The position numbers and the translations under genes are program-made. The notes beneath the pieces were generated by a model. It was not told where the DNA came from. It ran no database searches and saw nothing but the letters and a program-made list of their open reading frames with translations. DNA of 64,000 nucleotides from Phycisphaeraceae bacterium (GTDB taxonomy: Bacteria; Planctomycetota; Phycisphaerae; Phycisphaerales; UBA1924): the NCBI GenBank assembly GCA_019636655.1, contig JAHBXB010000002.1, positions 570,537-634,536 on the forward strand, read 5' to 3'. Below are positions 42,422-46,082 of this stretch, piece by piece (position 1 is the first letter of the stretch; each line of letters begins with the position of its first letter).

Positions 42422-43636
42422 TCACGCGGTACCGTGCCCGACCTTCGCAGGCTTGGCTCGTCGCCAGCGTGACGCAAATCGCCGATTCGAATCACGCGCA
42501 AAATCTTCGGAGAGCACAGCCATGCTCAGGTCGTCGTAGCCGAAGAACGAGCCCGCTGACCAGTTGTGACTGCCGATAATTGTCTGCTCCTGGTCGATCA
42601 CGATCATCTTGCTGTGGAGGAGGCGGTTCTCGCGATCCGTGCGCACCGACACGCCATGCCGAAGCAGATACTGCACTGCCGCCGCGTTGATGACCTGCGA
42701 TCGATACGGATCACCGCGGCGATCGCGATCAACCAGTACCCGGATGCGGACACCACGATTGTGTGCGGCGATCAGAGCATCAAGAAGCGCTCGAGTGGGA
42801 TGGTTCTGCTTCGGCCAAGCTATATGGAACATCAGAACGTCGACGGAGCGCTGGGCCGCTCGAATCTCGTCCCGCGTGTAGTAGTAGTACTGGCGCCCCG
42901 GAAGCACCATCGATTCTGAGGCCATCCGGGCACGCGGGCGTTCGACCTGGGTGAAGGGCCGGGGCAGGTGGTGCTTGAGATGCGGGTGTCGATGCGAAGC
43001 GACGACATGTGCGACTCGCTGCAGAGCGGCGAGCAAGCGACTTCGGGAGTCCTGAGCCGGCTCTTGGGCTATCAATGCCTCAAGGTCGCGACGCCAGTCA
43101 CCGCTGGCACGGACGTGCGGAGTCGGCTCGCGGCGGAAATTCAGGAACTTCCTGAGGCGACTGGCACGGGCCTGTCCGACGAGAGAAACGCGACGCGCCA
43201 GATCGGAAGCGTCGCGAAACGGCCCGTTCTCGTCACGCTCTGCGATGGTGGCCTGGACTCGACGCGGCGTCATATCCGGCAGCGCCCCGAGCGCCTCTCC
43301 ATCGGCAAAGTTGATTTCGAGGCGCGTCACGGCCTCGATGACCAATCGGCTTCGTTTCTGATGGAACTGGTACCCCGGCGCGGGCGAAGCCGTCCCGCCG
43401 AGGGTATGGGAGAAAGCCTCGGCGAGCAGGCGCTGCGCGTGCATACGTGCCTGGCGTTTAGATGGCAGTGCCGCGGCGAAGGGCCAACCGCCCGTCGCGC
43501 GCAGTATCCCACCGACAATCGACCGGACCTCCTCGACGCGGAGCGTGCCTGCCAGCCCGGCGACCTCCGCGATGGCCTCCGTCAGCGAGCCATCCACAAG
43601 TTGCGGCCATTCAATCTGGTAACTACTCATTGCCAC
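42422..43636 (-). CDS. PLD-family protein with helix-hairpin-helix region
   Basis: A 404-residue protein. Residues 105-165 contain a HhH-like DNA-binding element (LEINFADGEALGALPDMTPR ... SLVGQARASRLRKFLNF). The C-terminal phospholipase-D fold has one HKD-type motif: HSKMIVID at 341-348 followed by GSHNWSAGSFF. A single HKD motif means the enzyme would need a dimer or its operon partner. Similar proteins are DNA nucleases or lipases; the HhH points to nucleic acid. Last gene of a four-gene overlapping operon (14-bp overlap with the preceding gene). Confidence 0.8.
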   Translation of the reverse strand: MAMSSYQIEWPQLVDGSLTEAIAEVAGLAGTLRVEEVRSIVGGILRATGGWPFAAALPSKRQARMHAQRLLAEAFSHTLGGTASPAPGYQFHQKRSRLVIEAVTRLEINFADGEALGALPDMTPRRVQATIAERDENGPFRDASDLARRVSLVGQARASRLRKFLNFRREPTPHVRASGDWRRDLEALIAQEPAQDSRSRLLAALQRVAHVVASHRHPHLKHHLPRPFTQVERPRARMASESMVLPGRQYYYYTRDEIRAAQRSVDVLMFHIAWPKQNHPTRALLDALIAAHNRGVRIRVLVDRDRRGDPYRSQVINAAAVQYLLRHGVSVRTDRENRLLHSKMIVIDQEQTIIGSHNWSAGSFFGYDDLSMAVLSEDFARDSNRRFASRWRRAKPAKVGHGTA

Positions 43637-44156
43637 TTTCCCCGCGGTGCTCTGGCCTGAGCCATTGTGCTGAAAAGAGGCTGCAGAGGTACGCGGTCAA
43701 CGACGCCGACTGGAACCATGCGCTGTCCTGCGTGCTGCTCAGGAAGGCCGATGGCGACCAGTTGTGCGATCCGAGAAGCGCCTCATCATCGGCGATCACG
43801 AACTTGCAGTGACTGCCTCGCCGCGCGCGAGCGCCGATCCACTTCGTGGGAATGCCCATCTGGCGGCTCACGGCCACGGAGGCCGCGACCGATTCGGCGA
43901 TGAGCAGGTTGTCGCGGCTGCCGCCCACAATCAGCCGCACATCCGCGCCGCGCCACTGCGCTGCCGCGAGCTCATTGAGGATTCCCAGCACCGCGTGTCT
44001 CGCGTCCGCCGTCACATCGAGATCGACCATGAACAACGAGGCCCAGACACGCTCGCGGGCGCGCTGAATCATCCCGGCGAGCACTCGGGCATAACGGCGA
44101 TCCGAGACAAGGGCAACACGGGAATCTTCAACCGCCAGTCTACTCGTCTCGGCCAT
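43623..44156 (-). CDS. Second PLD-family protein, HCK active-site variant
   Basis: A 177-residue protein made of little more than one PLD half: VWASLFMVDLDVTADARHAV, VRLIVGG and the HxK motif HCKFVIADDEALLGSHNWS (H116, K118). The same GSHNWS block ends the motif in its partner. Each protein has one HKD half, so an active heterodimer is plausible (inference). It overlaps the upstream gene by 17 bp and the downstream PLD gene by 14 bp. Confidence 0.75.
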   Translation of the reverse strand: MAETSRLAVEDSRVALVSDRRYARVLAGMIQRARERVWASLFMVDLDVTADARHAVLGILNELAAAQWRGADVRLIVGGSRDNLLIAESVAASVAVSRQMGIPTKWIGARARRGSHCKFVIADDEALLGSHNWSPSAFLSSTQDSAWFQSASLTAYLCSLFSAQWLRPEHRGESGNE

Positions 44157-45702: not shown

Positions 45703-46082
45703 GCTCCGGTAGCTCAGCTGGATAGAGCATCGGTTTCCTGTAGGAACGGGACCCGGCCCAGGAATGGGCCGGTGCCAACCGGGTGAACTCGGGGAAACCC
45801 AACCGCGGCCGCCGCGGGGGCAATCCCGAGCCGAGCCGTCGGCGGGGTTGGAGGCGTGAGCGCCTTCAAGCCGGCGGAAGGTGTAGAGACCAGCGGGTGA
45901 GTCGCCCCGACGATACTCCCGCACCTGATCGCGGCGTCGCGCCGCGAGAGGGAAGCGCCCGGCACCCGACAGCCGCGGGCCAGCGATGGCTCGCGGGAAG
46001 GGTGGTGAGATGGTCCGGCCCGGCGGGGTGACCGCCGGAGGGCTGAAACCGAAGGTCGCGCGTTCGAATCGCGCCCGGAGCG
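45703..46082 (+). tRNA. tRNA-Arg (anticodon CCT), interrupted by a group I intron
   Basis: Exons 45703-45739 and 46046-46082 join to a normal 74-nt tRNA: acceptor GCTCCGG/CCGGAGC, D-arm GCTC/GAGC, anticodon stem TCGGT/ACCGA, loop TTCCTAA with anticodon CCT (reads AGG), T-arm GCGCG-TTCGAAT-CGCGC, discriminator G. The 306-bp insert lies after the third anticodon base. CCA is not encoded. The 5' splice site is set by restoring the 7-nt loop and the 3' site by the terminal G of the intron. Confidence 0.95.
45740..46045 (+). ncRNA. Group I intron (IC3-like) in the tRNA-Arg anticodon loop
   Basis: 306 bp. Core elements match those of the Azoarcus tRNA-Ile intron in order: P element ACTCGGGGAAACCC (45787-45800), Q GGCAATCCCGAGCC (45819-45832), R GAAGGTGTAGAGACCAGCGG (45877-45896), S GTGAGATGGTCCGG (46005-46018). 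A perfect 8-bp hairpin with GGAA loop at 45753-45772 fits P2. The last base is G (46045). It lacks an open reading frame for a homing endonuclease. P1 pairing at the 5' splice site is imperfect on paper. Self-splicing is inferred, not shown. Confidence 0.9.

Follow-up and report, generated by a model that had tools for sequence, protein, structure and literature searches.

Group I introns of the IC3 subgroup occur in bacterial tRNA genes, including those for tRNA-Ile in Azoarcus, tRNA-Arg(CCU) in Agrobacterium, and tRNA-Leu in cyanobacteria. GNRA loops in L2 and L9 and a short P5 are typical of these introns, and we know of none with an extra domain between P7 and P3'. Group I introns in tRNA genes of Patescibacteria (CPR) have reportedly been described by Lui et al.

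Published accounts of such introns in Patescibacteria exist: a 2021 paper mentions them (PMC8172020), and they are the subject of Nakagawa et al. 2025 (bioRxiv 2025.07.03.662931), as cited in PMC12641178. For another subgroup, IA2, with examples in phage Twort and IStrons, two domain 7 hairpins are listed as a feature (PMC4227781), and those of the Twort intron, P7.1 and P7.2, are described as encircling the guanosine pocket (PMC1995217).

The window analyzed here is a 64,000-nucleotide stretch of a Phycisphaeraceae genome (contig JAHBXB010000002.1, positions 570,537 to 634,536, forward strand), and positions given without a contig refer to it. It carries a tRNA-Arg(CCU) gene interrupted by a 306-nt intron. 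The intron lies in the anticodon loop like the IC3 tRNA introns, and by eye it resembles them in its short P5, its GNRA L2, and its P, Q, R, and S elements; we presume on this ground, rather than from a sequence comparison, that its core belongs with theirs. It differs from them in its host, a member of the Planctomycetota, and in the space between P7 and P3', where we found a P7.1 supported by covariation and a P7.2 region. The preliminary description had likened the P, Q, R, and S elements to those of the Azoarcus tRNA-Ile intron; the intron is not of the plain Azoarcus type. With IA2 introns it shares two hairpins beside P7. Unlike them, it resides in a tRNA gene, the rest of its core looks IC3-like by eye, its P7.2 is variable, and it has one short P9 instead of an extended domain 9. 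Overall, the core looks IC3-like, with an added P7.1 and a variable P7.2 beside the G-binding P7 helix.

Anatomy of the intron-bearing gene

The tRNA-Arg(CCU) gene occupies 45703-46082 on the plus strand. When 45703-45739 and 46046-46082 were joined, ARAGORN recognized a 74-nt tRNA-Arg(cct), whereas the unspliced gene was missed by ARAGORN run without introns. The preliminary description had placed a 306-bp insert after the third anticodon base of this gene, and its coordinates were right. The features of the gene are as follows.

45703-45739 (+): 5' exon of tRNA-Arg(CCU), ending at U36; from the sequence, with the spliced exons folding as tRNA-Arg(cct)
45740-46045 (+): group I intron, 306 nt, final base G (46045); matched by model R2 (see below), boundaries alike in 22/22 parsed copies
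45736-45751 (+): P1, U33-U36 (45736-45739) with GGGA (45748-45751), and a covarying extension of 45740-45741 with 45746-45747
45753-45772 (+): P2 hairpin with GNRA loop GGAA; by eye, GNRA loop in 20/22 copies (not L006 and L010)
45779-45785 (+): 5' strand of P3, CCGGGUG, with partner CGCCCGG at 45956-45962; compensatory changes
45788-45830 (+): P4 (45788-45793 with 45825-45830; P and Q elements), from the alignment, and P5, from the fold
45888-45892 (+): 5' strand of P7, GACCA (R element), with partner UGGUC at 46011-46015 (S element); alignment A1 and R2 alignment
45893-45922 (+): P7.1 hairpin, 45893-45897 with 45918-45922 and an inner helix of 45901-45903 with 45909-45911; covariation
45923-45955 (+): variable P7.2 hairpin region; from the fold, strongly variable in A1
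45963-46004 (+): P8, 45963-45967 with 46000-46004; both-side changes at 2/5 pairs
46020-46038 (+): P9 hairpin with a loop of five bases; by eye and from relatives
46046-46082 (+): 3' exon of tRNA-Arg(CCU), beginning A37 A38; from the sequence and spliced exons

The boundary count refers to the 22 copies parsed by script, one further copy (L038) having failed the parse; in all 22, the last intron base is G. Folding of 45706-46080 gave a z-score of -5.04, and none of 100 shuffles folded as well. Six open reading frames of at least 30 codons overlap the intron. Two of them lie inside (31 and 82 codons) and four run out of it; none is convincing, and no homing gene was recognized. The earlier statement that the insert has no open reading frame holds in this sense. 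Upstream of the tRNA gene, two neighboring genes for PLD-like nucleases, one with a helix-hairpin-helix motif, are encoded on the minus strand (42422-44156).

Pairing was assessed in two alignments: A1, with 21 Phycisphaerales copies plus the Candidatus Berkelbacteria copy L034 (22 sequences), and A3, with 23 Patescibacteria introns. L017, cut by a contig end, was left out of A1 and A2; L094, with an S motif outside the regular expression, was left out of A3, which also lacks L099-L104. The core helices P3, P4, P7, and P8 occur in order, with a P3/P7 pseudoknot and 98.8% of cells paired (22 sequences); P4, P7, and P8 each have 98-99% of cells paired in A1. Cells with changes on both sides of a pair numbered 24 in A1 (5.6 in shuffles) and 48 in A3 (15.6 in shuffles), values reached by 0 of 500 shuffles in either case. 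The count of further pair types was less striking, with shuffles as high in 59 of 500 (A1) and 40 of 500 (A3).

At the 5' splice site, P1 consists of U33-A, C34-G, C35-G, and U36.G, followed by two intron pairs. This extension has standard pairs in 23 of 23 members (P1 of L038 having been read from its sequence and added), with four pair types at each position: UA 19, AU 2, GC 1, and GU 1 at the first, and CG 18, UA 2, GC 2, and AU 1 at the second. The preliminary remark, which saw no simple U-G fit in P1, was thus mistaken; the helix is canonical.

P3 is nearly invariant in Phycisphaerales (22 or 23 of 23 at each position), and in Patescibacteria its first and second positions each have UA in place of CG in 10 of 23. 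An alternative P3, CGGGUG with CACCCG, was abandoned: it would take up bases that several members require for P8, and the CCGGGUG/CGCCCGG pairing covaries. P7.1, located between P7 and P3', pairs GCGGG with CCCGC around a conserved UGAG...CCC...AUA. Both-side changes affect one of its five outer and two of its three inner pairs in A1, and four of five outer pairs in the 23 Patescibacteria, where all cells of the outer helix are paired. These A1 and A3 counts use fixed columns; in the P3 comparison, the 3' strand of P7.1 had been chosen as the best-fitting among six offsets, which introduces a slight bias. P8, with its two covarying pairs in A1, has 87.8% of cells paired in the 23 Patescibacteria (14 cells unpaired). 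P7.2 is found in most Phycisphaerales and is absent from L013 and from the 23 Patescibacteria of A3. L9 is a GNRA loop in 11 of 17 copies (by eye), and the window's P9 loop has five bases. By analogy with the hairpins of IA2 introns, we infer that P7.1 may brace the guanosine site.

Group I identity and distribution among bacteria

The preliminary description had proposed an Rfam group I covariance search, a score below threshold to count against the intron. RF00028 did not report the window copy at its gathering score, up to E 10 on a 501-base stretch, or genome-wide, a result that, taken to the letter, speaks against the assignment. We read it as a failure of sensitivity because, of the 15 Phycisphaerales copies scanned besides the window's, RF00028 found one, L015 (39.6 bits, E 1.3e-6, under the cut-off of 50), yet all three Patescibacteria relatives of the same type (L077, 67.8 bits; L034, 52.6; L076, 50.5). 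These three are source introns of model R2, and all passed. Besides these 18, the scan of 19 sources other than the window included L075, a related intron without P7.1 (43.7 bits); L181 and L191 gave no match at E 0.1. The gathering score sets the limit of detection and does not define group I introns.

Given that RF00028 is blind to the window copy, a covariance model built on introns of other organisms was used as the test. R2, derived from the 23 Patescibacteria introns of A3 alone, had a single match in the 64-kb window, at 45878-46016 (42.2 bits, E 1.6e-8). R1, a model built from the 22 sequences of A1, the window's own copy among them, matched one place in the window's whole genome. By its core helices, its covariation, and the independent R2 match, the insert is assigned to the group I introns, bearing out the preliminary identification of a group I intron in the anticodon loop of this tRNA.

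Earlier it had been suggested that orthologous genes be surveyed for the insert and that its occurrence here would extend the known distribution of tRNA-Arg introns; the lineage, Phycisphaerales of the Planctomycetota, does extend it, the comparison with Agrobacterium being one of general knowledge. R1 matched 25 of 400 sampled genomes of the order Phycisphaerales, and 24 after rejection of one false positive (L073 in G170, 35.4 bits), which has no tRNA at the site and whose genome has an intron-free gene. A 20-base R/P7 pattern searched in genome contigs occurred in 18 stretches, 16 of them from Phycisphaerae, Phycisphaerales, or Phycisphaeraceae, one from an organism named only "bacterium," and one from Candidatus Berkelbacteria. 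In the phylum Planctomycetota, 11 of 392 genomes were matched by R1, three of them from other families; by eye, the intron of one (L181) lies in tRNA-Arg(CCU) after U36 and those of L182 and L183 lie in other tRNAs.

In the phylum of L034's genome, taken as Patescibacteria, R1 matched 55 of 379 genomes at E <=0.01 and down to 24 bits; 26 loci, including that of L034, were inspected, and the weakest matches (24-35 bits) are mostly outside that set. Several of these copies interrupt tRNA-Phe(GAA) after U33 (by eye). From these Patescibacteria introns, which R1 also matches, the window's differs in lying in tRNA-Arg(CCU) after U36, in a planctomycete, and in having P7.2. A related intron of the Berkelbacteria genome G400 (L075:929-1252, minus strand), the second in its tRNA genes, lies in a Met-type tRNA and by eye lacks P7.1. 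The Patescibacteria relative at L078:1111-1434 has a 107-aa HNH-like open reading frame upstream of the ribozyme core (motif by eye), and HNH-like motifs were also seen by eye upstream of the core in L080, L085, and L100.

Searches of phage, plasmid, and viral sequences for the planctomycete-type intron (blastn and exact pattern) gave no match. A group I-like core with P7.1 was seen in seven IMG/VR viral contigs (L184-L190; for example, L190:1021-1240 and L184:8405-8642), where it is apparently intergenic and followed by a conserved 3' tail. No tRNA or other exons were recognized at these loci, RF00028 scored four of them (L184, L185, L188, and L190) at 62-71 bits, and the seven group together at 100/99; they are possibly a stand-alone group I-type RNA. 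In a context unlike theirs, two other viral contigs (L191:11174-11262 and L192:3635-3723) have the same core (58 bits with R2) soon followed by an apparent open reading frame.

An intron tree of 53 rows (without L075, L085, L091, L094, L099-L104, L183, L191, and L192) separated a Phycisphaerales set, including L181, from a set of Patescibacteria and viral introns, including the planctomycete L182, at 98/86. Branches are long, above all that of L181, and bootstrap values had not settled. Transfer of the intron from Patescibacteria to Phycisphaerales is unsupported, the two sets being separate. Titles and abstract openings of literature on planctomycetes, CPR/Patescibacteria, tRNA-Arg, P7.1 with tRNA, and integrases or integration, a collection that most subscription journals fall outside, held no account of this case.

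A sole gene copy and the G075 element

The window's genome has 45 other tRNA genes above the Rfam cut-off, none with anticodon CCT according to ARAGORN; its Arg anticodons besides that of the intron-bearing gene are CCG, ACG, TCG, and TCT. Of the 400 Phycisphaerales genomes, 295 matched a pattern for intron-free tRNA-Arg(CCT), comprising 0 of 24 intron carriers and 295 of 376 others (Fisher p 1.3e-15, relatedness ignored). In 81 genomes, some of them incomplete, neither form was found by the R1 and pattern searches. Judging from its sequence, the window intron is predicted to splice. It is highly improbable that the insert stays unspliced in a dead gene while the UCU tRNA reads AGG codons; a tRNA-Arg(TCT) gene is present and could read AGG by wobble, but the exons are intact, and the catalytic elements show compensatory changes in 23 genomes.

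One carrier, G075, has its intron-bearing tRNA gene beside a tyrosine integrase gene; both lie on a 15-kb element that interrupts a resident tRNA-Arg(CCU) in its anticodon loop. A 12-bp direct repeat, GTTTCCTAAACG, is located at 401494 and 416484 of its contig C2, 14,990 bp apart; this core sequence comprises the anticodon loop and adjoining stem bases. The cut resident gene is on the minus strand, with its 5' part plus core at 416,484-416,495 and its 3' part plus core at 401,494-401,505; by eye it is restored at neither end. In the congener G006, tRNA-Arg(CCU) is intact at the same locus. Read from the end at 416,484, the 14,990-bp element encodes the integrase, with Arm-DNA-bind_3 (PF13356) and Phage_integrase (PF00589) domains, and then, about 1.5 kb inside, the intron-split tRNA gene. 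A HATPase protein, a DNA methylase, and a primase-polymerase follow further in. The intron site in the substitute gene, GTTTCCT/AAAC, is within the sequence that acts as core in the resident gene. The DNA methylase and HATPase protein of this element (C2:401494-416495; L162, L150) might form a defense module.

Among the tRNA-gene islands of Islander, crossover in the anticodon loop is given as one of the main site classes (PMC4383910). The G075 element resembles these islands in its tyrosine integrase and crossover site, and both halves of the target tRNA flank it, as expected of a tRNA-gene genomic island. It differs from the islands as described there, which restore their target gene, in leaving the target cut and bringing a whole intron-split tRNA gene.

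No adjoining integrase or target fragment was found for the window copy, and its contig (C2 of G000, the window's genome) has no PF00589 match at E 0.001. No broken half of a resident tRNA-Arg(CCU) was recognized in G000 or in G049, another carrier. A PF00589 match beside the intron-bearing gene was found in one of the 23 carriers searched (all but G039), namely G075; the search included short contigs, such as one of 3.1 kb in G026. In viral contigs, the G075 integrase had no confirmed relative, and among the gathered loci only G075's own was found. Elsewhere in the window's genome, 45 bases at C3:162782-162825 (L160) are identical to the 3' part of a tRNA-Met gene about 92 kb away (C3:254604-254678; L126), and a PF00589 match lies roughly 270 bp from that gene; a large genomic island probably occupies this tRNA-Met gene.

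Probable origin of the gene and proposed link to integrative elements

The exons of the window, G075, and G049 genes, from three genera, are identical at all 74 positions, and the introns of these three cluster at 95/87 in the tree; whole-gene identity of the G075 and G049 copies to the window's is 84-85%. Intron-free genes differ from the shared exons at 17 (G006, a congener of G075), 13 and 17 (G356 and G263, congeners of G049), and nine (G065) of the 74 positions, by ungapped counts, gap-excluded identities being inflated. By eye, the window and G049 copies lie amid seemingly ordinary chromosomal genes, the latter bordered by a glycosyltransferase gene and trpF. Homologues of both these neighbors are present in G356, where the fetched flanks contain no tRNA. 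Output from tblastx was set aside as GC-driven noise.

We consider, with a probability of roughly 80%, that this IC3-like intron with P7.1 moved within a whole tRNA gene that arrived laterally, most likely on a G075-like integrative element, and replaced a resident intron-free gene. The intron would travel with the complete tRNA gene and not alone, and the incoming gene would take the place of the resident intron-free tRNA-Arg(CCU). The G075 case suggests that an intron-split gene spreads by replacing intact ones; the window gene would be a laterally acquired replacement of this kind, and a G075-like element its probable vehicle.

Vertical inheritance of an ancestral Phycisphaerales intron, lost in most lineages and captured late and oddly by the G075 element, seems unlikely. 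The intron was present in 7 of 7 sampled genomes of genus g23 and 2 of 2 of g43, the 23 Phycisphaerales introns form one group (weakly, 58/52), and the identical exons in three genera could also reflect conservation. However, genera g7 and g50 are split between carriers (G075 and G049) and intron-free genes (G006, G363, G263, and G356), the exons differ from those of congeners at 13-17 positions, and no tRNA lies in the fetched flanks of the G356 homologues of the two genes beside the G049 copy.

Movement of the intron alone into resident tRNA genes, by homing or reverse splicing, appears less probable still. The HNH-like frame of L078 would fit such a route, and the exon comparison with intron-free congeners covers the trio of window, G075, and G049. 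On the other side, the window intron encodes nothing convincing, and the three genomes share exons as well as intron, whereas the congeners of G075 and G049 have different exons.

Under lateral arrival of the whole gene, the intron may have a further role, and here we hypothesize that it shields the gene from integrases. The integrase of the element would cut the anticodon loop of tRNA-Arg(CCU) and destroy the resident gene. The attachment core of the substitute, GTTTCCT/AAAC, is split in the DNA by the intron and would therefore be uncuttable by this or similar integrases, and splicing would restore the tRNA. The element could then decay and leave the intron-split gene as the only, integration-proof copy, as in the window. 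That the intron confers immunity in this way on behalf of a mobile element that replaces genes is rather doubtful. As a supporting circumstance, four of the six PF00589 matches in the window's genome are no more than 1 kb away from a tRNA gene.

Related ideas have been put forward for archaea. Protection of tRNA genes by introns was proposed by Randau and Soll (as cited in PMC4390854), and the spread of archaeal tRNA introns by way of an attP that contains an intron was proposed by Sugahara 2012 (as cited in PMC8371274). Thaumarchaeal elements that reside in intron-bearing tRNA genes, as described in the latter source, argue against a general shield. These proposals share with ours the tie between integrative elements and tRNA introns; they concern archaeal tRNA introns, whereas here a group I ribozyme in bacteria is involved.

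With this finding, the known tRNA-Arg(CCU) introns come to include examples from Planctomycetota. Their structure is also a variant, combining an IC3-like core with P7.1, and RF00028 and plain ARAGORN overlook it, so that the tRNA seems absent from such genomes. The link to an element is the interesting part: a connection between introns and integrative elements, as vector or shield, has so far been argued for archaea, and G075 provides an example in bacteria.
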